Positions 4,147-36,017 of a stretch of 64,000 nt of DNA are shown one piece after another (the stretch's first letter is position 1; each line of letters begins with the position of its first letter). The notes beneath the pieces are model-generated. The model was not told where the DNA came from. It searched no databases and saw only the letters and a list, made by a program, of their open reading frames with translations. Position numbers and translations under genes: made by a program. The DNA is from Phycisphaerae bacterium. Lineage in GTDB: Bacteria; Planctomycetota; Phycisphaerae; Sedimentisphaerales; Sedimentisphaeraceae. The stretch spans positions 29,984 through 93,983 of the forward strand of contig JALWYQ010000045.1 in the NCBI GenBank assembly GCA_027078365.1, given 5' to 3'.

Positions 4147-5206
4147 TTGGAACTCCTCCAATTGGTGTTTTCTTACAGAGTCTATCAAGTAGTGGAGTAA
4201 AGGCATTCATAATTAGAACAGCATACATTACTCCCTCTGGGTAGGCTCCAACAGTTCTGATAAGCATTATTAAAACCCCAACGCCAATTCCAAATAACGC
4301 CTGCGCTTTGGTTGTCATAGGGTTTGTTACTGGATCTGTTGCAATGAAGAAAGCACAGATTAGTAGTCCACCTGAGAAGATTTGGAATAGAGGGTTTACA
4401 TACACTTCCGGTTTGAAGAAGTGGAAGATCTCAGCGAATATGAATGCACTAGCCAGAACAGATACAGGGATAACCCAAGTTATGGTTCGTCTTAGAAGCA
4501 TGTAGATGCCACCAAGCATTAGCGCAAGAGAGCTGGTTTCTCCAAGGCAACCGCCAGTGTACCCAATTAATACAGCTTTTAGCTGTGAGTGGCCAAAGTT
4601 CTCTTTTATTATTGTTTCGGCTTGCTCAAGAGTCTTTGCCTTGATAGCGTTTTTTGTCCAAGCCAGTGGAGTCGCTTCTGTTATTCCCTCAAGACCTTGA
4701 TCTTGGTACTTCTCGGCGATTGTTGCGCCCTTTGGCCCAATCTGTGGAAGTTCAGGGTTGATATTTGCCGGCACTGTCCAGGTTGTCATTGCCATACCAA
4801 AACATGCAGTCAAAAAAGCCCTTCCAAGCATAGCTGGATTAAATGGATTGTTACCAAGACCACCAAAGACCATCTTTCCAATTGCTATCGAAAAAACGCT
4901 ACCGATAATTAGGTATGCAACAGGCAACATCGGCGGAACGGAAAAAGCAAGTATTATTGCTGTCAAAACAGCGCTCAAATCGCCGATACTAGATGGCTGT
5001 TTCCTAACTTTACAAATAATCCACTCTGTAACAACGCAGCTTATCACACATGTAGCGACAACAATAACAGCTCTTAGTCTGAAAAAATAAGCCGCTGCCA
5101 AGAGGGCAGGCAAAAGGGCAATAATCACATCAAGCATTACCATACGTGTGCTGATTGGTTTGCTGATATGTGGCCCTGGCGATACAAATAGTTTATCTTT
5201 GGACAT
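4136..5206 (-). CDS. rnfD: Electron transport complex subunit RnfD
   Basis: MSKDKLFVSPGPHISKPIST; NPFNPAMLGRAF; EATPLA segment corresponding to the RnfD flavinylation site. Confidence 0.94.
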   Translation of the reverse strand: MSKDKLFVSPGPHISKPISTRMVMLDVIIALLPALLAAAYFFRLRAVIVVATCVISCVVTEWIICKVRKQPSSIGDLSAVLTAIILAFSVPPMLPVAYLIIGSVFSIAIGKMVFGGLGNNPFNPAMLGRAFLTACFGMAMTTWTVPANINPELPQIGPKGATIAEKYQDQGLEGITEATPLAWTKNAIKAKTLEQAETIIKENFGHSQLKAVLIGYTGGCLGETSSLALMLGGIYMLLRRTITWVIPVSVLASAFIFAEIFHFFKPEVYVNPLFQIFSGGLLICAFFIATDPVTNPMTTKAQALFGIGVGVLIMLIRTVGAYPEGVMYAVLIMNAFTPLLDRLCKKTPIGGVPNAA

Positions 5207-8310: not shown

Positions 8311-8721
8311 TTAGATAGTAATATCCTTATTATCGTCTTCCGTCTTTTGCGCCATTGAGTAGTTATTGTCTTGGCGTGAGTGGTTTACGCCAAGCTTTTG
8401 CTCGTAGAGATTAACTACATCGTCAGGGTCTAGACCTAGGCATTGAGCAAGGCTAATCCAGAAGAAAAGCATGTCGATAACTTCAACCCTAGCATTTTGA
8501 AGGTCGTTTATCATAAAACGTTTGCCTTCTTTAGCTTCTTTGCACCAGTGTTTCCAGAATGTGCAATCTCTGAGTTCTTCTAATTCGTTACTCATTGCGG
8601 CGATGTAGTTATTTAGCCACTCACCAGCATATTGCGGGTCGAAATTTTCTCTTAGTGCCTTAGCGTCAAAACCTGTTCTTAAATTAAGCTCTGCCTGTTT
8701 TTCGAAAAGTTTTTTTAGCAT
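8311..8721 (-). CDS. Dimeric dUTPase (all-alpha NTP-PPase superfamily)
   Basis: SNELEELRDCTFWKHW and NARVEVIDMLFFWISLA acidic helix motifs typical of the dUTPase_2 family. Confidence 0.8.
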   Translation of the reverse strand: MLKKLFEKQAELNLRTGFDAKALRENFDPQYAGEWLNNYIAAMSNELEELRDCTFWKHWCKEAKEGKRFMINDLQNARVEVIDMLFFWISLAQCLGLDPDDVVNLYEQKLGVNHSRQDNNYSMAQKTEDDNKDITI

Positions 8722-8747
8722 CGTTTTATCGTTATCCCCAAAAAGAT

Positions 8748-10007
8748 TTAGTTGTCAAGATTAACAAAACGCTCTGGCAGTGGGAATGCCGAGCAGAGCT
8801 CTTTGACTTCATTAGCCACTTTTTCGATTGCTTGCGCATCATCTACATTGTTGGCAATGTCGTTAAAGAACTTAGCAATCACATCCATCTGCTCTTCCTT
8901 CATGCCTCTAGTGGTAACTGCAGGTGTTCCGATTCTGACACCACTAGGGTTAAATGGTGAAGCTGGGTCGTTTGGTATTGTGTTGCAGTTTGATATGATA
9001 TTTGCCATATCAAGGGCCTTGCTCATCTGCTTACCCTTGATGCCTTTGTTTCTCATATCAATTAAAATCAAGTGATTATCTGTGCCACCTGAAACTAAAT
9101 CAAAACCATATTCCATAAGTTTTTCTGCTAGTCTCTTAGCGTTTTTAACTATCTGTTTTGCGTAATCAGCAAAATCATTAGTAGCGGCCTCTGCCATAGC
9201 TACTGCGATTCCTGAGATTGTGTGCATGTGAGGGCCACCTTGCATACCAGGGAATACTGATTTATCTACTGCAGATGCGAGAGCTTCTTTGCACATAAGC
9301 ATTCCACCGCGTGGACCACGCAGTGTTTTGTGTGTTGTTGTTGATACGATATCTGCATACGGAACTGGACTCATATGAACTCCACCAGCGACAAGACCAG
9401 CGATATGTGCGATATCGCTGACTAGATAAGCGCCAACGCTATCGGCTATTTCTCTAAATGCTTTGAAGTCTATCTCTCTTGGATAGGCAGTTGCGCCTGA
9501 GATTATAACCTTTGGCTTGTGTTTCTTTGCAAGATCGGCAATCTCATCGTAGTCAAACATTCCGGTATCGTCGTTAACTTTGTACTGAACAGAGTTGAAT
9601 ACTTTACCAGTTGCGCTAACCTTCCAACCGTGTGTTAGGTGTCCGCCTTCTGGAAGAGAAAGTCCCATTATGGTATCGCCTGGTTGGCAGATTGCCATGT
9701 ATGCTGCCATGTTCGCAACAGAGCCAGAATACGGCTGGACATTTACGTGGTCCGCAGAGAAGACTTTCTTTGCTCTCTCAATTGCTAGAGTCTCAATTTG
9801 GTCTGTAATGCGCTGACCTTCATAATATCTTCTGCCAGGGTACCCCTCAGCATATTTGTTTGTCAAACAGCTTCCAGTGGCATTCATGACTGCTTGTGAG
9901 ACATAATTCTCTGAAGGTATGAGCCTGATTGCGCCATCTTGACGCAATTTTTCTTCTTTAATCAATTCTGCTATTTTAGGGTCTTGTTGCTCTAGAGCAC
10001 TCAACAT
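8748..10007 (-). CDS. glyA: Serine hydroxymethyltransferase
   Basis: IRLIPSENYVSQAV, STTTHKTLRGPRGG PLP-lysine motif, PEGGHLTHG. Confidence 0.97.
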   Translation of the reverse strand: MLSALEQQDPKIAELIKEEKLRQDGAIRLIPSENYVSQAVMNATGSCLTNKYAEGYPGRRYYEGQRITDQIETLAIERAKKVFSADHVNVQPYSGSVANMAAYMAICQPGDTIMGLSLPEGGHLTHGWKVSATGKVFNSVQYKVNDDTGMFDYDEIADLAKKHKPKVIISGATAYPREIDFKAFREIADSVGAYLVSDIAHIAGLVAGGVHMSPVPYADIVSTTTHKTLRGPRGGMLMCKEALASAVDKSVFPGMQGGPHMHTISGIAVAMAEAATNDFADYAKQIVKNAKRLAEKLMEYGFDLVSGGTDNHLILIDMRNKGIKGKQMSKALDMANIISNCNTIPNDPASPFNPSGVRIGTPAVTTRGMKEEQMDVIAKFFNDIANNVDDAQAIEKVANEVKELCSAFPLPERFVNLDN

Positions 10008-24263: not shown

Positions 24264-24704
24264 GTTACTCCTTAAAAAAATAATAGAAATTCATCACCTC
24301 ACGTTTTGAAGAATAAAGCTGCGAAATAGTCATAGTTGTGTAATCTGCCTTATCCTCTCCAGACAATAAACTACTCTATTTAGGGTACGCAAATCAATTA
24401 AAAAAGTAATAAAGACCACAATTTATTGCTGCCTAGGGCCTGCCGTACTGCAATCTTCGATATTCTCGGACGTAGGGCTCGAGTTTTACTATGCGCATTC
24501 CAAGATTATGGTTTCGATAGTCATTGTTTCCTGATTAATTGAGTCTGCTACTTGAGAGCAATTGTCATGATAGAAGAAATTAATTTGGTTTGACATAGTC
24601 TATGCTGTTGCTATCTTAGTGGCAGTTGGTTTTAAGGGGAGGTTAGTGAGATTTTTTTAGGGCCAAGCTGATTTGTTAAATGATAATGGAAGGGAGTTTT
24701 GGTA

Positions 24705-26339
24705 ATGAAGTTTTGTTTTGGGCTGACTAAATCTATTGCATTTGTCGCAGTCATACTAATTCTAAGCGGCGCCGTTTTGGCTATGTCTAATAGCAAGTCG
24801 GTTCACAAATCAAAGAAACAATTACAAAATTCAGATACTAGTGAGGCCATTCGTTCTATATGGCTTGACAAAGATAAAGGCGATAACATCTTAAGGGCTG
24901 CCCAAGAATTAAACTTTAATTCGGTGGTTGTTCATTGGAATAAAGAGACGACTCCAGATTTCATTAAAAGAGCTAAATCTTTTGGGTTTGATACCTACGT
25001 TTGGGTTTATCCAACGTTTCCACAGGAGGATAAAGATAAATATTCTCAGGTGATGTCCAAGCAGGAAGAGGCAATTTGGGAGAAAGAGATAAAGCTTGCT
25101 CGTGAGAATAAGCTTTTTACCAGCGATTACCAAGGCGGTGGCGAGCCGCTAGATGGCAATAAAGAGGTTTTGATTTACGATGTGCCATGCTTTCACCACA
25201 GAGAGGTGGTAGAGGATGTTGAGAGAAGGGTTAAAGATATACTGGAGAGTGCGCCAGATCTTGCTGGCATAGCCTTGGATATGTTTGGTTATAAGAATTA
25301 TCACTGTTGCTATTGTGATACTTCTAAAGAGCTGTTTGAGCAATACTACAAAAAGCACCAAGATATGGATAGGGATAGTGCTTGGGAAAAGTTTAACCTT
25401 GAGACATTGGTTGACTTCCAAAACGAGATTTGCAACTATGCAAGATCTATCAGGCCAGATGTAAAAATAACAAACCATGTTTGGCCTACTTATCTTCCAA
25501 ACCCAACATACGGAAATATGCTTGATTTAGATTATTGTGCACAGACAGCCGCTTGGTTCTTTAAGCCGTATTGGAGCGATGAGAAGATTAGTAGATATAC
25601 AAAGCTCTTCGTTAACCAAGCAAAGAAATATCACAAGCGTTCACAAGGTGTGCCGTTTATTGGTTACTACAATAGAGAAGGCTACAACGTTAAGTCTCCA
25701 GAAAGATTAGCCCACGAGGTTGATGTTATCTTATCAAGTTCTAACAGCAAGAATCTTGCGATTCATTGCTTTGGAGATATTGTCAAGACCCCCGCAGCTT
25801 TTAATGCTTTGAAAGAGGTGCTTATTAAGCACGGTATTGTAGATGTAGCGGCAACTAAAAAAAAGATAGAAGTAAAGACTATTGAACATTCATCAAAATC
25901 CACGTCTCTAGCTAGTGTTGAGATAGTTAGTTTAACTGCAGAAAACGTAGTTGTTTTGCCGCCGACTAAGAAGATATGGGATGCGGCGCATGAGGTAATC
26001 TCGATTTCGCCAACCTCAAAAGCTTGGCATGCAAAATGGAGAGTCTTTGATTCTCTGGCTATTGGGGAGTATAAAGTCCGCGCATTTCTAAAGTTAAAGG
26101 GGCAAAAAGAAGGCTATGGAATTAGATTTGGTATTTATAGCCCTAAGGCTAATAAAGAAGTGTTTAGTAAAGTTATTCGAGCTGATAAGATTCCTCAATC
26201 GGATGCTTATCAATGGGTGGACCTTGGCAAAGCTAATATAACAGATGATGCAGGAGCATATTTCTTTGCTACTAGTGGTGGTGATAATTCGTTTGATACC
26301 TTCTTTTTAAGCGAAGTTGAATTTGTTCGTGTCAAATAA
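24705..26339 (+). CDS. Secreted glycoside-hydrolase-like protein (GHL/TIM-barrel type, function unassigned)
   Basis: Signal peptide; IRSIWLDKDKGDNILRAAQELNFNSVVVHW, FDTYVWVYPTF, LAGIALDMFGYKNYHCCYCD; C-terminal beta-rich region; AGGGAG 8 nt upstream of ATG 24705. Confidence 0.6.
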   Translation: MKFCFGLTKSIAFVAVILILSGAVLAMSNSKSVHKSKKQLQNSDTSEAIRSIWLDKDKGDNILRAAQELNFNSVVVHWNKETTPDFIKRAKSFGFDTYVWVYPTFPQEDKDKYSQVMSKQEEAIWEKEIKLARENKLFTSDYQGGGEPLDGNKEVLIYDVPCFHHREVVEDVERRVKDILESAPDLAGIALDMFGYKNYHCCYCDTSKELFEQYYKKHQDMDRDSAWEKFNLETLVDFQNEICNYARSIRPDVKITNHVWPTYLPNPTYGNMLDLDYCAQTAAWFFKPYWSDEKISRYTKLFVNQAKKYHKRSQGVPFIGYYNREGYNVKSPERLAHEVDVILSSSNSKNLAIHCFGDIVKTPAAFNALKEVLIKHGIVDVAATKKKIEVKTIEHSSKSTSLASVEIVSLTAENVVVLPPTKKIWDAAHEVISISPTSKAWHAKWRVFDSLAIGEYKVRAFLKLKGQKEGYGIRFGIYSPKANKEVFSKVIRADKIPQSDAYQWVDLGKANITDDAGAYFFATSGGDNSFDTFFLSEVEFVRVK

Positions 26340-27543: not shown

Positions 27544-28287
27544 CTATATATTTATGTCTTTAGGTTCATATATGGTAATTGTTGAGTCAATAATTTCTAT
27601 ATAGTTGTTGGAATGCTTTAGTAATTCTTGTGCGTCCATAATATGCGAGCTGGTTGATGAGGATAAGCCAATTCCAGATTTACAAATCTTTGATATATGC
27701 TCAAGCATCAAAAACGCAAGATTGACTGTTTCGCCACAGATGTCTTTTGAGCAATAATCTGGATGACCAATCGTTCCAAGGTAAATCGGGCCACTGTTTA
27801 GGGCAATCTTTAATTTGTCGTCTTGGATAATCCTTTTTGCGTAGATTGCGGCTTCATAAGCTCGTTGCGCGTGGTCGGTTCCTGAAAAGAAACACAAAAA
27901 GCCATCTCCTAGATATTTAACAGGAATAGCATCGTATTTGAGTACCGCATCTGTTAGGTGGTGAAATATTATGTTGGCATATTCTGCGATCTCCGGCGAT
28001 TTCATAGAAATAGACTTTTGCGCATATTCGGATAGGGCTGTGGAAAAAACAGTTGCTTCGAATATGCCTTGCCCAAGGTCGTTTGCACCAAGTAGAAAGT
28101 CGGTGCTGACGTCTAGAATCTTTGCGAGTTCAACCAAGATTGTAATATCTGGATAGGTTTCACCCCTCTCCCACTTTGATACTGCTTGAGGGCTTATGGT
28201 CAGAGCCCGGGCAAGGTCTATTTGTTTGAGATTAAGTTTCTCCCTGCGCAATCTTATTCGTTTGCCTATATCCATATCTTCATCCAC
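27544..28287 (-). CDS. XRE-family HTH protein fused to a class III nucleotidyl cyclase homology domain
   Basis: HTH IGKRIRLRREKLNLKQIDLARALTISPQAVSKWERGETYPDI; C-terminal KYLGDGFLCFFSG and GPIYLGTIGHPDY...GETVNLAFLM cyclase-like motifs. Confidence 0.8.
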   Translation of the reverse strand: MDEDMDIGKRIRLRREKLNLKQIDLARALTISPQAVSKWERGETYPDITILVELAKILDVSTDFLLGANDLGQGIFEATVFSTALSEYAQKSISMKSPEIAEYANIIFHHLTDAVLKYDAIPVKYLGDGFLCFFSGTDHAQRAYEAAIYAKRIIQDDKLKIALNSGPIYLGTIGHPDYCSKDICGETVNLAFLMLEHISKICKSGIGLSSSTSSHIMDAQELLKHSNNYIEIIDSTITIYEPKDINI

Positions 28288-28453: not shown

Positions 28454-29689
28454 ATGGATAAACAAACAGAGCTATTAGCACCAGCAGGCACGCTTGAGAA
28501 GTTAAAGTGGGCAGTTGCTTATGGAGCCGATGCGGTATATTTTGGAGCAGGTTATAGCTTACGCAGCTTTGCTGGCAATTTCTCTATTGATGAAATTCAA
28601 GACGGGATTGACTATCTCCACACGCACGGCAAGAAGGGCTATATCACATTAAATAGCTACCCATTTTCTGATGAGTACGATGGGATTGTCTCTCTTGCCA
28701 AGCAGGTTGATGACATGGGAGCTGACGCTCTAATCATCGCTGACATGGGCGTTTTTTATGAGCTTAAAAAGTTGGGGCTCAAAGCTAAATTGCACATAAG
28801 TACACAGGCAAACACAATGAGTGCGCAGGCAGTGCTTGCATACCAACAGATGGGGGCATCAAGAGCTAATCTTGCTAGAGAGCTTTCTCTTGAGAAAATT
28901 GTTGACTTACAAAAGCGTATCTTGGGCTCTGGTATGGAGACGGAGGTCTTTGTTCACGGTGCGGTTTGTTTCTCATATTCAGGACGATGCGCGATTAGTG
29001 ATTATATGACGGGTCGAAGAGCAAATCATGGAGAGTGTACTCATCCTTGTAGATGGAAATACCATCTTATGGAAGAGCAGAGAGATGGTGAGTATTATCC
29101 TGTCTTTGAAGACGACCATGGTCTTTACTTTTATAACAGTAAGGACTTGGCCCTTTTTGAATATATTCCAGCATTGGTTGAAGCCGGCGTGAATTCATTT
29201 AAGATTGAAGGGCGTATGAAGAGTATTCACTATATTGCTTCAGTTGTATCGCTTTATCGAAGAATATTGGATGGAGAGGAAATCTCTTATGACTACGGAA
29301 TGGCGCTTCTAAGTAGGGTGAAAAATCGTGGTTACTCACAAGGTTTCATGAAGGGAAATATAACCGTTGATGATTATCAGCTTGGAGATAATCACTCAGA
29401 CAGTGCTGCAACTTTTGTTGGAAATGTTCTTGGTGATGATGAGTTAGTCGATGGGAAAAAACTCTTCCGAGTTCGCAATAAAGTGCATGCAGCAGAAACA
29501 CTTGAGGTGTTAACTCCAGATGGAAAGTTAACTAGCCTAACCCTTAGCAATCCATTGGTTAATAGTAGAGGTGAACAGCTGGAATTTGCAAATAATGAAG
29601 AGAAAATTGTAATCGAGAACAACCTCCCAGAGTTTACAATAATCAGACGATATGACGCTAATAAAATTATTGGAGCCAAAAATGGATGA
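28454..29689 (+). CDS. Peptidase U32 family protein
   Basis: ELLAPAGTLEKLKWAVAYGADAVYFG; VHGAVCFSYSGRCAISDYMTGRRANHGECTHPCRWKY; FKIEGRMKS. Confidence 0.95.
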   Translation: MDKQTELLAPAGTLEKLKWAVAYGADAVYFGAGYSLRSFAGNFSIDEIQDGIDYLHTHGKKGYITLNSYPFSDEYDGIVSLAKQVDDMGADALIIADMGVFYELKKLGLKAKLHISTQANTMSAQAVLAYQQMGASRANLARELSLEKIVDLQKRILGSGMETEVFVHGAVCFSYSGRCAISDYMTGRRANHGECTHPCRWKYHLMEEQRDGEYYPVFEDDHGLYFYNSKDLALFEYIPALVEAGVNSFKIEGRMKSIHYIASVVSLYRRILDGEEISYDYGMALLSRVKNRGYSQGFMKGNITVDDYQLGDNHSDSAATFVGNVLGDDELVDGKKLFRVRNKVHAAETLEVLTPDGKLTSLTLSNPLVNSRGEQLEFANNEEKIVIENNLPEFTIIRRYDANKIIGAKNG

Positions 29690-31169
29690 TGTTAAAGAGT
29701 TTGAAAAGGTACTCAGTGATTCTGACAAATGTGTGCGCATTGTTACTCTTGAAGAAGATTATGCCCTTGAGGTTGTTCAGGAAGCAGCGATGAATCTCTC
29801 TAAGCAATCATTTGTTTGGACCTTGGCGAGTGGGGTGCGTGAAGGTTTGCTTGAGGGTGAAATTGCAGAGTTTGCTGCACAGAGTCCAGTAGATGCAATC
29901 TCTTATATGTTGAAAAGACCATACGGTAGCGTTTGTATCTTTTTAGACTTGGCCGAACATCTCAAGAATGGAATTGCTCTTAGATTGCTCAGAGATTCTA
30001 TCGCTACAATGAAGAAAAATAATATTACATTTGTGTTGATAGATAGCAATGACAATATTCCAATCTCCATCAAAAGCAATAGTAGATTATTTGAATTGTC
30101 ACTCCCAGATGCAGATGAAATTAGTTCTATAGTGAAAAATACACTGCGCATGATTAATTCTAATTCTCCTATTGAAATTGGGGTTACCAAACGAGGGATG
30201 GATATTATCATACGCAACCTTCAAGGATTAACCCGCAAACAGATACGCAAAATTGTAGAAGATACAGTTGCTGAAGATCACCGATTTGATGATGACGATA
30301 TCAATGTAGTTCTCTCAAGTAAGCGGCGGCTGATGAACTCAAGCAGTTATCTTGAATATGTTCAGACCCCTCTAACAATTGATGAAATTGGAGGAATGAG
30401 AGTCCTTAAAAGTTGGCTCAAAAAGAGGCGGGGCGTTTTTTCTAAACGAGCTAAAGACTTTGGTCTAGTAGCGCCAAAAGGAGTTTTGTTACTTGGAGTT
30501 CAGGGAGCAGGAAAGAGTCTTTGCGCAAAAGCCTTGGCGACTGGTTGGAAGCAGCCACTACTAAAATTAGATGTTTCTGCGTTATACAATAGTTACATTG
30601 GTGAAACAGAACGAAACTTACGAAACGCCTTTAAACAGATTGAGATGATGGCTCCAGCGATATTGTGGATTGATGAAATTGAAAAGGCTTTCGCAGGAGC
30701 TGCAGCACAGAGTTCTGACGGAGGTCTTTCAAAGCGTATGTTTGGCTCGCTATTAACATGGATGCAAGACCATGAGTCACCTGTGTTTGTCGTTGCTACT
30801 GCAAATGATATTGCAGCCCTGCCGCCAGAGCTTCTTCGTAAGGGAAGATTCGATGAGATATTTTTTGTTGATTTGCCAAAAGAAGATGTGCGTGAGCAGA
30901 TTTTTAAGATTCATCTAGAAAAGAGAGGTAGAGACCCAAAGAAGTTTGACCTGAAAGAACTTGCTAAAGCGAGCGCAGGTTTTAGTGGCGCAGAGATTGA
31001 GCAGGCTGTCATTAATTCAATGTTTGATGCGTTTACAGATGATGTAGAACTAAGCAATAGCCATATTATCAATACATTGAAAACTTCACCGCCTATCTCG
31101 GTTACAATGTCAGAGAAGATTAGTGAGTTGCGCCGCTGGGCAGAGGGAAGATGTACTGTGGCCGACTAA
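29682..31169 (+). CDS. AAA ATPase (Ycf46/FtsH-like AAA module)
   Basis: GVLLLGVQGAGKSLCAKA Walker A, APAILWIDEIEK Walker B, ELLRKGRFDEIFFVDLP; start reassigned to ATG 29682, overlapping the U32 gene end. Confidence 0.9.
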   Translation: MDDVKEFEKVLSDSDKCVRIVTLEEDYALEVVQEAAMNLSKQSFVWTLASGVREGLLEGEIAEFAAQSPVDAISYMLKRPYGSVCIFLDLAEHLKNGIALRLLRDSIATMKKNNITFVLIDSNDNIPISIKSNSRLFELSLPDADEISSIVKNTLRMINSNSPIEIGVTKRGMDIIIRNLQGLTRKQIRKIVEDTVAEDHRFDDDDINVVLSSKRRLMNSSSYLEYVQTPLTIDEIGGMRVLKSWLKKRRGVFSKRAKDFGLVAPKGVLLLGVQGAGKSLCAKALATGWKQPLLKLDVSALYNSYIGETERNLRNAFKQIEMMAPAILWIDEIEKAFAGAAAQSSDGGLSKRMFGSLLTWMQDHESPVFVVATANDIAALPPELLRKGRFDEIFFVDLPKEDVREQIFKIHLEKRGRDPKKFDLKELAKASAGFSGAEIEQAVINSMFDAFTDDVELSNSHIINTLKTSPPISVTMSEKISELRRWAEGRCTVAD

Positions 31170-31182
31170 CTTGCAATCGGGT

Positions 31183-33540
31183 TTAGTACGTCCTTAATTC
31201 GATATTGCCCAGATCGTTAATTTCATCAGTTTTTATGCCTTGTATTTCTGTTGCCTTGCTTGCTATAGAACTTTCAATATAGAGTTCGATTGGCAAGCCC
31301 AATGGAACGCCTTCAAGACTGAATGAACCATCTTGTCTATCGTAATTTTTTAGCCATAGATCCCAAGGTGATGTTATTATATCATTATAGGGTGTTTTAA
31401 AGATTATACGAAATCGAGCGTCTTCGATGGCGTTGCCGTTTGAATCTACGACGCGTCCTGATAATCTAATGCCGTCTCTTAAGATTATTTCAATCCCATC
31501 GCTGTTGATAATATCTTCATCACGTAGGACAAATGAGGCTCCTACCTTTTTGTCCGTATCATATGCGAAGCCTGCTATTATCTTGGCGCTATCAAAATCG
31601 ATTTTGAGATGACCGTGGTGATCGCTTTTGATTGTTTCTGAATCTCCAAGTTTTACAAAGCCAGTTACTTCTGTGCCATATGTGTCCACAAGGTAGCATT
31701 GTATTTGGCTCTCTTCTTCTAGAGTTACACTGATATGAGTCACCGGCCCAGATATTTTCTGGTTAAAGCTTTGGTCTTTATATCCTGTGCATTGCAATTG
31801 AATATTTAAGTTACAGCCATCAGGCAAATTTAAAACATCAAAAGTGCCATCGTCTTGGGTGTAGTTGCATATTCCAATTGCATCGATAAGTGTTGATGGT
31901 AATGTTTCATTACCGACTACAACTTGAATAGACATGTTTGCATTGACTATCTGGTTGTCGTATTGATCGACGATATCGCATACAAACTCTGAGCTAGGGG
32001 GAAGTTTTACGAGTATGTTAGGGGAGTCTTTAGGGTTGATTCTCTTGTAGAAGAATCCATAAGAAGGATGTATTACTAGCAATACGATGTTTGCATCTTT
32101 GAGGTCAGAGAGTGAATCTATTTCAAATGCGCCTTCTTTGTGTGAGTATGTAGTTGCTGTGAGTGTGTAATTATTTGCACTATTTTTTTTGTTGTGAGTG
32201 AAGATTAAGACTTTAGCATCTTCAATAGCATTGCCGTGCGAGTCTGTAACTATTCCTTTGATTGTAGAGGCGTGGCTGGTTCTTTTATCAGAAATATCTT
32301 TTGTATTTGGCTGCGCATTGAAACGAGTTGGTTTAATTCTATTGTTTATCCTTTCTATGGCGGTTTTGAATATATTAGTGTCTTCTTTACCTGTCCATCT
32401 TACGCTTTCTCTTTTAAGTGGTTCTATTGCTGATGCGTCACCAACTGTTGCCAAGAAACCGGCAGCTATCATTTTATCTACCATTATACCTGTATTGAGA
32501 ATCTCGATTAGCCCGTCGATGTCATTGTTTTGAGCTAGCTCAGAAATCCTAGCAAAAGATTCTTTGATTTCTACATCCTGCTGGTTTGTTCTTGCCTGTT
32601 TAGATTGTATTTTGCTATGTTTAGTATCTTCTGGTTTGTTGATATTCTCATTCTTCTTGGAGCTGTTACTAGTTCGTTTTAGAATGTCTAGGTTTTGAGA
32701 TTTGCTCTTACTGGTTTTGTTGGTCATAAATACAAGAGTTATCGCTAGGATGACAACAAGTATCACCAGTATGGAGATTTTAGAAGTTTTCTCTAATGTG
32801 ATATTGAAATGATTACTGTCTGTTTTCTTGTTTAATTCCTGTAGAGATGATTCTAGTAATTTTTCAATATTTAAATCTTCTTGACGAGCATCATTTGGCT
32901 TGAGAAGTTTTATCAATAACGTCAATACATCTAGAGAGCCATTTTGGCTATAGGTTGGAATTATCTCAATATCTGTTAGATTCTTAAACTCTATATAGAA
33001 ATTCTTAATAGATACTTCTTGAGCTTTTCTTAGCTCTTCACTGTGAAGATATACTTCTTTAGATAGATGTCTTGTTGTCATTGCATCTAGAAATCTACCA
33101 AGCAAGATTGATTGTTGCCTAGAATCTAGAGATGAAATAACAAATCTGATTATTTGCGCAAGACTTTCTGTATTTGTAGGATTTACTTGCTCTAGAGGCT
33201 TAAAGCTCGATATCTTATCCTTGTCTGGAAAGAGTTCTTGTATTGCTCTAGTTACTTTTGTCTGGTAGATATCCTTTTTGTATTCCTTTTTTATCTGCTC
33301 TGTTGCAATCTTCCACAGAAAGCACCACAGAGAGTCATTTGGTTTGAGTCTATTTATATTTCTTGCAGCCTGAATGAAAACTTCACGTGTAATTCTGTTT
33401 GTAACGCCGTTGTTAGCGAAAAAGACCCCTATCCTCTGATTGAGTTTGCTAGAGTATGCATCTACCAACACAACCCACGCATCACTGCGTTTTTGCTTGA
33501 TTTCAGCTATAATTTCTTTTTCTTGGAGTCTCTCTAGCAT
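31183..33540 (-). CDS. Sigma-70/ECF-like protein with TM helix and carboxypeptidase-regulatory-like extracytoplasmic domains
   Basis: N-terminal sigma2-like (AWVVLVDAYSSKLNQRIG...TREVFIQAARNI...CFLWKIATEQIKKEYKK), sigma4-like region, TM ISILVILVVILAITLVF, then repeated KGIVTDSHGNAIEDAKV / LSGRVVDSNGNAIEDARF beta-sandwich units. Confidence 0.75.
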   Translation of the reverse strand: MLERLQEKEIIAEIKQKRSDAWVVLVDAYSSKLNQRIGVFFANNGVTNRITREVFIQAARNINRLKPNDSLWCFLWKIATEQIKKEYKKDIYQTKVTRAIQELFPDKDKISSFKPLEQVNPTNTESLAQIIRFVISSLDSRQQSILLGRFLDAMTTRHLSKEVYLHSEELRKAQEVSIKNFYIEFKNLTDIEIIPTYSQNGSLDVLTLLIKLLKPNDARQEDLNIEKLLESSLQELNKKTDSNHFNITLEKTSKISILVILVVILAITLVFMTNKTSKSKSQNLDILKRTSNSSKKNENINKPEDTKHSKIQSKQARTNQQDVEIKESFARISELAQNNDIDGLIEILNTGIMVDKMIAAGFLATVGDASAIEPLKRESVRWTGKEDTNIFKTAIERINNRIKPTRFNAQPNTKDISDKRTSHASTIKGIVTDSHGNAIEDAKVLIFTHNKKNSANNYTLTATTYSHKEGAFEIDSLSDLKDANIVLLVIHPSYGFFYKRINPKDSPNILVKLPPSSEFVCDIVDQYDNQIVNANMSIQVVVGNETLPSTLIDAIGICNYTQDDGTFDVLNLPDGCNLNIQLQCTGYKDQSFNQKISGPVTHISVTLEEESQIQCYLVDTYGTEVTGFVKLGDSETIKSDHHGHLKIDFDSAKIIAGFAYDTDKKVGASFVLRDEDIINSDGIEIILRDGIRLSGRVVDSNGNAIEDARFRIIFKTPYNDIITSPWDLWLKNYDRQDGSFSLEGVPLGLPIELYIESSIASKATEIQGIKTDEINDLGNIELRTY

Positions 33541-33550
33541 CGTTCTCTCG

Positions 33551-34654
33551 TTACAATTTTATTAGCATTTCTGCGATTTTTTGAGCTGCATCCGGAGTTT
33601 GCAATCTTTTTGCAGCCTCTTTCATATCGTCTATTTTGGAGCTATCTATTAAGAGAGGCTCTAATACAGCCCATAGATTTTTCGTTGTAAGTTCTGGCTT
33701 TTGGTAGCTATCATCTACTATTATCGCAGCATTAGCTTTTGCCATTATCTGGGCATTTAAGTATTGATGGTTATCTTTGTGGTATGGATACGGTAGGCAT
33801 ATAGCTGGAGTTTGAGTGTTTATGTATTCGCTGACGCTAACTGCGCCACTTCTACCAATAACAATATCGGCTAGAGCTAATAGATCTTGCATTCTGTCGT
33901 AATAATCAATTGCAACCGCTTTTATTTTGGATTTTTGGTAGAGGCTTCTCAGATTCTTGCCCTTGCCGCGACCTGTTAGGTGGATAATTTGCCAATTTTT
34001 GGCATATCTATCCAAGCTAGGTATTAGATTCTCAATAGCATCATTTATATTCTTTGCTCCACTAGAAGCGCCGGTTACTAGTAGGGTTTTCTTGTTGGCA
34101 TCTAGGTTAAATTCTTTTATTACAGATTCACTATCGCTGTTATCGAAGGCCATACGTAATGGGCAACCCGTGGCTATAACGTTTTTTGACTTAAAGTATT
34201 TTTTTGTTTCGTCAAATTGAACGTAAATCTCTTTTGCTAGCGACGCCATTAACCTGTTTGCTTTACCTGGAATTACATCTACATTTATAAAGCCAATAGG
34301 TTTGTTACAGAGTCTTGCAGCTAAGACTACTGGCCCAGATACAAATCCTCCACAGCCAATAACGGTTGCATTGTCTGCGGATTTGAGTTTTTCTTTAGCA
34401 ATGCGCAGGCTTTTGTAAAATTTGGCTAAAAACCTAAAAGATGCTATATTCCTAGCTTGAGGTGGTATCACAGGTAGAGCGGTGTAACTGAAGTCACTTT
34501 TGCCGAGTATCATAGAGTCTATCTCTCTCTGGCTGGAGAAAAAATGTATGCTACTTTGAGGCTCTAAGCTTTTGAGTCTTTCTGCTACAGCCAAGGCAGG
34601 GTATATATGCCCGCCGGTTCCACCGCCTGCAAAGAAGTATGTTTTCTTACTCAA
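33551..34654 (-). CDS. murG: UDP-N-acetylglucosamine--N-acetylmuramyl-(pentapeptide) pyrophosphoryl-undecaprenol N-acetylglucosamine transferase
   Basis: FFAGGGTGGHIYPALAVAERL; IGCGGFVSGPVVLAA; ADIVIGRSGAVSVSE. Confidence 0.96.
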   Translation of the reverse strand: MSKKTYFFAGGGTGGHIYPALAVAERLKSLEPQSSIHFFSSQREIDSMILGKSDFSYTALPVIPPQARNIASFRFLAKFYKSLRIAKEKLKSADNATVIGCGGFVSGPVVLAARLCNKPIGFINVDVIPGKANRLMASLAKEIYVQFDETKKYFKSKNVIATGCPLRMAFDNSDSESVIKEFNLDANKKTLLVTGASSGAKNINDAIENLIPSLDRYAKNWQIIHLTGRGKGKNLRSLYQKSKIKAVAIDYYDRMQDLLALADIVIGRSGAVSVSEYINTQTPAICLPYPYHKDNHQYLNAQIMAKANAAIIVDDSYQKPELTTKNLWAVLEPLLIDSSKIDDMKEAAKRLQTPDAAQKIAEMLIKL

Positions 34655-35787
34655 TAGAGCGTCTCCTTTGCATTTTCCTTTGAACTACTGCGTGCTATAT
34701 TTATCAAGACTCCCACCACAGCAGATGAGACAAGCAAACTTGTGCCTCCTGAGCTGATAAATGGTAGTGGAATTCCCTTGGTTGGTAAAACAACTGTGAC
34801 AACACCAATATTTATAGCGGCTTGTAGAGATATTGCCATAACTATTGTCGCGGCCAATAGTTTGCCAAATAAATCTTTGCATCTTAGTACAACCATCATT
34901 CCAAGAATTGTGAAGGTAACAAACAACACAATTACAGTCAGAGAGCCTATAAACCCGAGTTCTTCTGAGATGATAGCAAAGATAAAGTCGGTAGTATCTT
35001 CGGGAAGGTGGCCCCATTTACAAATTCCTCTACCAAGCCCCTTGCCGGTGAGGCCGCCGGTGCTTACAGCGATTAGTGACTGTCTTGCATGATATAGAGC
35101 CGCATTGTCACTGGCCTCTGGATGCATAAATGCGGTAATTCTTGCAAGCCTGTTTGGCGATTTTAAGATTACGTAAATAAACGTAGGAATTATAAATGGC
35201 AATGGAGTCAAAAAGTGCCATATTTTTGCGCCGCCAAATAGAAGCATCAACGCTGTTATAAGAGATATAAATGCTGCCGTTCCCAAGTCTTGAGTTACGA
35301 TTAAAATAACCACAACCCCCGCTATTGCACAGATGGGAACAAAGCCAGTCCAGAAGTTTGCGATTCGGTCTTGGTGCTTGACGATATATCCAGAGAGAAA
35401 GAAAATCAGTGACCATTTTGCGACCTCGGACGGCTGAAACCTCATATGCAAGCCAGGTATTTCTAGCCATCGGGTTGCATTGTTGACTCTAGCACCAAAC
35501 TTTGTAAATAGAACAACGCATAACGCTACTATCGAAAATGCCAGCATCCAAAAACTTATAGACCTCAGTAGCGACTTGTGAGATAGATTAAACCATTGAT
35601 ATGGGATAAGAGAACTACCTAGCATTACTGAAATTGCAATAGGGAAAAAGATAAGTTTTCTAAGGTCGTTATTGCTATTGAGGCTTGCTGATGCAGAGCA
35701 AATAAAAACTGTACCGATAGCTATGAGTGATATTACTGTCATAGCGATATATTGATCTAGATAGCTACGTCTATTGATACTTGCCAT
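34651..35787 (-). CDS. ftsW: Peptidoglycan glycosyltransferase FtsW (SEDS family)
   Basis: ATRWLEIPGLHMRFQPSEVAKWSLI; DFIFAIISEELGFIG; GIPLPFISSGGTSLL; start reassigned to MASINRRS. Confidence 0.95.
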   Translation of the reverse strand: MASINRRSYLDQYIAMTVISLIAIGTVFICSASASLNSNNDLRKLIFFPIAISVMLGSSLIPYQWFNLSHKSLLRSISFWMLAFSIVALCVVLFTKFGARVNNATRWLEIPGLHMRFQPSEVAKWSLIFFLSGYIVKHQDRIANFWTGFVPICAIAGVVVILIVTQDLGTAAFISLITALMLLFGGAKIWHFLTPLPFIIPTFIYVILKSPNRLARITAFMHPEASDNAALYHARQSLIAVSTGGLTGKGLGRGICKWGHLPEDTTDFIFAIISEELGFIGSLTVIVLFVTFTILGMMVVLRCKDLFGKLLAATIVMAISLQAAINIGVVTVVLPTKGIPLPFISSGGTSLLVSSAVVGVLINIARSSSKENAKETLY

Positions 35788-36017
35788 TGTATTGCAGAAT
35801 TTCCAGTAGAGTAAGAAAATAAAATAACTCCTCTTATATCGGCATGAGGCGGGTTTTGGCACAAAAAAACAACTGTAGTATTTTGTTGATAGATATTGGT
35901 GTTGCAACCTCATTTAAGGACCAATGCTTCTAATTGTACAATTTTGTAGTCTCAAATTGGTGGTTGTGGTATAATCTCCGCGCATTGTAGTAATGATTAT
36001 ATCAAGTGGATTTAGTG

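Follow-up and report, generated by a model that had tools for sequence, protein, structure and literature searches.

In a 64,000-nucleotide (nt) stretch of the genome of a Phycisphaerae bacterium of the order Sedimentisphaerales (assembly GCA_027078365.1, contig JALWYQ010000045.1, positions 29,984 to 93,983; hereafter the window), a 785-amino-acid (aa) protein carries in one chain the parts of an extracytoplasmic function (ECF) sigma factor and of a membrane protein. From N- to C-terminus these are an ECF-sigma-like domain, a junction, one transmembrane (TM) helix, a HEAT module and CarboxypepD_reg beta-sandwiches. Its gene appears to be an ECF sigma gene fused to its usual downstream neighbor in this order, a membrane-protein gene, creating a single-chain transmembrane signaling protein, and the architecture and fusion origin taken alone can be held with high confidence. 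The sigma-type domain is, by sequence comparison, degenerate yet under purifying selection. The overall reading that we favor, at a probability of about 0.6, is that of a membrane-held sensor in which the sigma-derived domain has become a signaling domain of another kind. An earlier note on this DNA, made from its letters only, had proposed such a chain of sigma-type domain, membrane tether and outside beta-sandwich region, and this is supported.

Sigma ancestry and the two-gene counterpart

The N-terminal similarity to ECF sigma2 and sigma4 regions, as first noticed, is real though it lies under every curated cut-off. The HMMER comparison proposed in the earlier note is negative for Pfam Sigma70_r2 (E 0.26, 11.5 vs 24 bits) and gives no match for r4; i.e. 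neither sigma2 nor sigma4 of the window protein rises above a curated model cut-off. Significant matches come from the NCBIfam ECF models, which cover residues 8-174 with E between 7.5e-7 and 3e-5, also all under cut-off (best are SigC, E 7.5e-7; SigW, 8e-7; and TIGR02937, 2.8e-5, the last with 28.4 bits vs a cut-off of 42.9), and from a profile of 50 ECF sigmas encoded by separate genes (the two-gene sigmas described below), which with the window left out scores 47.6 bits (E 1e-13 on the basis of 1000 sequences). For residues 1-255, an AlphaFold2 model built from two sequences (mean predicted local distance difference test, pLDDT, 53; about 70 in sigma2) has E. coli sigmaE, SigW and AlgU as its best Foldseek matches in the PDB (1or7, 5wur, 6in7; probability 1.00). 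Its sigma2 fits E. coli sigmaE region 2 with a TM-score of 0.81-0.84 by target length; the whole-chain fit is poor. Chance similarity is ruled out by the independent models and the fold matches, and the modeled domain has the ECF sigma fold.

The same pieces occur elsewhere in the order as two genes. Among about 100 stretches from other Sedimentisphaerales genomes, 90 HEAT-module proteins were classified with a sigma profile that included the window; rescoring used the two-gene sigmas only. For 54 of the 90, the gene directly ahead encodes a separate ECF sigma, in most cases of about 165-285 aa, and the two genes mostly overlap by 4 nt; 25 are fused (23 with a sigma-profile match ahead of their own TM helix, plus L048 and L055 from the same fused group); and in 11 no sigma is seen, for several of them because the contig stops short. 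The two-gene sigmas that were tested in Pfam pass the cut-offs for r2, r4 or both. Their partners have a short cytoplasmic part, one TM helix, the HEAT module and usually CarboxypepD_reg. The zinc motif of anti-sigmas, HxxxCxxC, precedes the TM helix in 15 of 56 two-gene partners and in one fused relative but not in the window protein; zf-HC2 passes its cut-off in the partners L051, L059 and L195. Another partner (L033:3850-6837) bears behind its CarboxypepD_reg units an AhpC-TSA/redoxin-like C-terminus (E 1e-5, just under cut-off).

The junctions of fused relatives repeat the cytoplasmic part of the two-gene partner. A sigma-like domain, a zf-HC2 finger above cut-off, a TM helix and HEAT share one 519-aa chain in L187:4911-6470, whose junction is 48% identical to that of partner L051 (E 1e-21). 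Those of L067, L213 and L061 match partners L068 and L191 at E 1e-9 to 1e-5 within the fetched open reading frames (ORFs), and a family-f6 junction profile matches partner L181 (E 1e-4). Because the pieces occur in the order as two overlapping genes, and because these junctions repeat the partner's part, the window gene is read as a fused sigma/membrane-partner pair. The orthologue survey proposed in the earlier note finds the same layout in the closest relative, G001; it is the order-wide two-gene state, which that note had not seen, that shows the origin.

The window gene is probably one of several independent fusions, as argued from the presence of three different junction types. A HEAT tree of 82 columns only has six changes, at least four of them forced by well-supported branches, and on this 82-column tree the approximately unbiased (AU) test does not reject a single fusion origin (p 0.25). 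The HEAT module is matched at E 1e-3 in 128 of the 161 genomes of the order, and in about 85 places at E < 1e-12; outside the order the phylum survey met HEAT repeats of a generic kind, with E no better than 1e-8, G221 excepted (E 1e-14). Genomes with a fused gene show no separate intact sigma beside it except at 2-3 loci, some flanks being limited. At two places (L061:2251-4065 then 4179-4733; L052:6831-8531 then 8684-9229) a gap of 113-152 nt separates a fused protein with sigma2 only from the intact ECF sigma gene downstream of it; these pairs are possibly a pseudo-sigma regulator and its target.

Residue loss, selection and topology

Holoenzyme formation requires the DAED site of ECF sigmas, an acidic contact to the RNA polymerase (RNAP) beta' clamp (PMC8103513). 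This site is net acidic in 48 of 50 two-gene sigmas, and reads VTNR in the window and TTNR in G001, both net basic. The recognition helix of the window sigma4 reads ELRKAQEVSIKNF, vs a TVRxRLxRA-type consensus of the two-gene sigmas. Conserved polar positions are kept at 12% in the window vs a leave-one-out mean of 59% (minimum 35%) among the two-gene sigmas; conserved hydrophobic positions are kept at 83% vs a mean of 91%. The suspicion that the sigma regions are degenerate is thus supported by the loss of the clamp motif and of most recognition-helix basic residues. Of the two outcomes that the earlier note had set against a true sigma factor, a missing sigma-domain match was not found, the match being significant, and conserved loss of the residues needed for core RNAP and promoter recognition was found in both sequences of the genus. 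A similar trend runs through the fused sigma domains that were scored (n=16), which keep 0.06-0.41 of the polar positions (mean 0.28, vs a two-gene mean of 0.59; Mann-Whitney p 3e-8, a value that ignores relatedness). Four family-f2 fused proteins lack sigma4 altogether, and the fused relatives L067 and L213 keep an acidic motif (AED) and score some 100 bits with the profile of two-gene sigmas.

The degenerate domain is nonetheless conserved. Compared with G001, sigma4 is more conserved than any other part of the protein (84% identity; nonsynonymous rate, dN, 0.089; synonymous rate, dS, 0.575; dN/dS 0.15), followed by sigma2 (77%; 0.142/0.675; 0.21); the neighboring murG gives 80% (0.110/1.05; 0.10), the first sandwich 50%, and the linkers fall to 24-45%. 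A pseudogene is ruled out by dN/dS. Genome-wide drift is ruled out as the cause of the residue loss, since other ECF sigmas of the source and sister genomes bear acidic motifs and score 123-135 bits. The residue loss, the purifying selection and the intact state of these other sigmas together argue for a function that does without the ordinary sigma residues; on such sequence evidence, ordinary sigma function has rather probably been lost.

The TM helix, the HEAT-like segment and the beta-sandwich units of the earlier description are all recovered, the HEAT segment as a member of an order-wide family. PF13620 (CarboxypepD_reg) passes at residues 426-478 (E 2.4e-10, 41.1 bits vs a cut-off of 32.3), and a second unit, CarbopepD_reg_2 at 559-611, is weak (25.5 vs 32.2); a low-confidence model has beta strands throughout the C-terminal half. 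Lys and Arg are richer before than after the TM helix in 18 fused proteins vs 3, and in 34 others vs 9, and a hydrophobic N-terminal segment that resembles a signal peptide precedes the HEAT module of L053. The family charge bias and L053 suggest that the HEAT and sandwich side is external. The sigma-type domain would then be cytoplasmic, with the outward HEAT and CarboxypepD_reg part probably binding or sensing some cell-envelope component, and the sigma-like domain probably relaying the outside signal by protein contacts rather than as a conventional sigma. Release by site-2 proteolysis is possible; M50 site-2 protease genes occur in the genome, one as a 750-aa frame, and their presence permits but does not show such release.

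Competing readings

A number of points weigh against the favored reading. The window TM helix has 2 charges before and 4 after it, contrary to the family trend. The window junction, residues 191-254, shows no similarity to other junctions or to any anti-sigma domain (hhalign probability 1.7%); the attempt to link this junction to an anti-sigma domain failed, the link being clear in the relatives L187 and L067. The selection estimate comes from one sequence pair, only two close sequences existing. The quality of the structure models is low (mean pLDDT 53 and 42), and too low for the C-terminal half in those built from two sequences. Finally, residue loss does not prove lost RNAP binding, as very divergent sigmas exist.

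In the main rival, a working divergent ECF sigma is fused to its own membrane anti-sigma, so that an outside signal would trigger proteolysis and the released sigma would direct RNAP. The parts stand in the same order as in IutY, whose active sigma is freed by Prc and RseP (PMC5411451, PMC8999054). The purifying selection on the sigma domain, strongest in sigma4, would suit this rival, as would the site-2 protease of the genome and the acidic motif and good profile scores of L067 and L213. However, the VTNR/TTNR clamp motif, the recognition-helix basic residues gone in window and G001 alike, and scores under every sigma family cut-off make it unlikely for the window protein. Somewhat less probable still is a sigma mimic, a special case of the favored reading with which its probability overlaps, in which the domain would occupy the anti-sigma of another ECF sigma and so free the latter, as a PhyR-like device at the membrane. 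Hydrophobic fold positions kept and polar ones not is what is expected of a mimic, and the two family-f2 loci noted above, where a sigma2-only fused protein precedes an intact ECF sigma, are in its favor. However, Pfam and NCBIfam scans gave no receiver domain match, no anti-sigma target was identified, and no intact sigma gene lies near the window gene.

Phosphorylation of Thr47, common to window and G001, might also restore the charge at VTNR/TTNR, as in EcfP (STTA). ECFs regulated by Ser/Thr protein kinases do have an uncharged DAED replacement whose charge is restored by phosphorylation (PMC8103513), and Ser/Thr kinases are present in the genome. However, the motif-final Arg adds the wrong charge, no kinase gene of the kind expected beside an ECF43-like sigma was seen among the neighbors ftsW, murG and the AAA ATPase gene, and none of the described cases is a membrane fusion. 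Such a switch is very improbable here. The membrane-held sensor with a re-employed sigma domain remains the favored reading, and the lost contact residues support the earlier suggestion that the protein may regulate from the membrane without being a genuine sigma factor.

Locus, known systems and meaning

The 785-aa ORF had been placed exactly in the earlier note, with its strand unstated; this is the minus strand, and the plus strand of the same interval is full of stops (Table 1).

Table 1. Features of the fused gene and its product in window coordinates
Feature	Position	Strand	Basis or remark
Whole gene, 785 aa	31183..33540	(-)	ATG start at 33540; same extent in G001/L215
10-nt gap behind murG stop, TAACGAGAGAACGATG, with GAGAG ribosome-site-like motif	33541..33550	(-)	
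Sigma2-like domain, residues 1-95	33256..33540	(-)	NCBIfam ECF models; Foldseek; G001 comparison
DAED clamp-contact site, residues 46-49, reads VTNR	33394..33405	(-)	TTNR in G001, LSRN in G002
Sigma4-like domain, residues 130-190	32971..33153	(-)	two-gene sigma profile aligned to residues 4-171
Equivalent of -35 recognition helix, residues 167-189, most basic contacts replaced	32974..33042	(-)	alignment
Junction, residues 191-254, in the place of the partner's cytoplasmic anti-sigma-like part in fused relatives	32779..32970	(-)	position only
Single TM helix, residues 255-274	32719..32778	(-)	mean hydropathy 3.09; helix in model too
Lysine-rich linker of low conservation, residues 275-325	32566..32718	(-)	45% identity to G001
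HEAT-like module, residues 329-402	32335..32556	(-)	HEAT-family alignment; order and phylum surveys
First CarboxypepD_reg beta-sandwich, residues 424-512	32005..32271	(-)	PF13620
Further divergent beta-sandwich units, residues 513-785	31186..32004	(-)	sub-cut-off match and low-confidence model strands

The gene follows murG (33551-34654), itself behind ftsW (34651-35913), and is probably co-transcribed with them; it lies tail to tail with an AAA ATPase gene on the plus strand (29652-31169). The murG neighborhood hints, but no more, at a link to the cell envelope. The source genome (G000; 2.29 Mb, 86% complete) has as its only close relative G001 (WGDE01000192.1), with an identical layout and 65-66% identity end to end. 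An assembly join or a frameshift of two genes is ruled out by recurrence of the layout in G001 and other fused relatives, and a mobile element by the lack of any match among plasmids. The fused gene adjoins murG in G000, G001 and, with a 74-nt gap, G002; in G003 and G004 no such gene was seen after murG. The G002 protein has no CarboxypepD_reg part and its HEAT module stands apart from that of the window in a weak tree, so its orthology rests on position.

Elsewhere in the window, 27544-28287 (-) encodes 247 aa with an Xre-type helix-turn-helix (HTH_3, E 2e-16) and a domain resembling class III nucleotide cyclases (Guanylate_cyc, slightly under cut-off at E 6e-4), in which the first metal-binding Asp is, by eye, apparently missing, and 24699-26339 (+) is a 546-aa ORF with no Pfam match at E 1. 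On contig C24 of the same genome a 658-aa sigma70-family protein (L220:1220-3196) has an apparent extra helix-turn-helix-like segment near its N-terminus; the ordinary RpoD is L219:2156-4081.

Fused sigma/anti-sigma proteins are already known. IutY of Pseudomonas putida (ECF243) likewise joins a cytosolic ECF domain, a membrane crossing and a periplasmic region in one chain (PMC5411451), but is a working sigma with an anti-sigma periplasmic domain of the iron-signaling type, unlike the degenerate sigma with HEAT and CarboxypepD_reg of the window; a 2022 review gives it as the only such fusion whose activation has been experimentally characterized (PMC8999054). The actinobacterial ECF48, ECF52 and ECF53, predicted fused sigma/anti-sigma proteins with C-terminal membrane extensions (e.g. 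SCO4117), share the order of N-terminal sigma, TM helix and external domain; however, they have a zinc anti-sigma finger, and SCO4117 a carbohydrate-binding domain, vs no zinc motif and another sensor in the window (PMC8999054). Planctomycetes ECFs with C-terminal extensions are also known, namely ECF57 with WD40-like repeats (PMC8999054). PhyR, the sigma mimic of Alphaproteobacteria, similarly has a sigma-type domain not used as a sigma factor, but has a receiver domain and no membrane part. Closest are the Sedimentisphaerales two-gene pairs (L033, L037, L040, L051, L054 and others), which have the same modules in the same order in overlapping genes, differing in a sigma that is separate and intact and in the zf-HC2 of some partners. 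The new variant would be the HEAT and CarboxypepD_reg sensor together with sigma decay; no paper was found on this sensor tied to ECF sigmas, on its two-gene form or on decay of the fused sigma, in a literature coverage that is incomplete and leaves novelty unproven.

More tentatively, and at present rather doubtfully, sigma/anti-sigma fusion in Sedimentisphaerales may have occurred repeatedly to yield membrane pseudo-sigma receptors, their sigma decayed and acting by protein contacts rather than on RNA polymerase. Fused sigma/anti-sigma proteins are rare, and a sensor type, HEAT with CarboxypepD_reg, is here described in linkage to ECF sigmas. One order holds a natural series that comprises two-gene pairs, fusions whose sigma is good, others whose sigma is poor and others again without sigma4, a series that makes testable how a membrane-tied transcription factor turns into something else.
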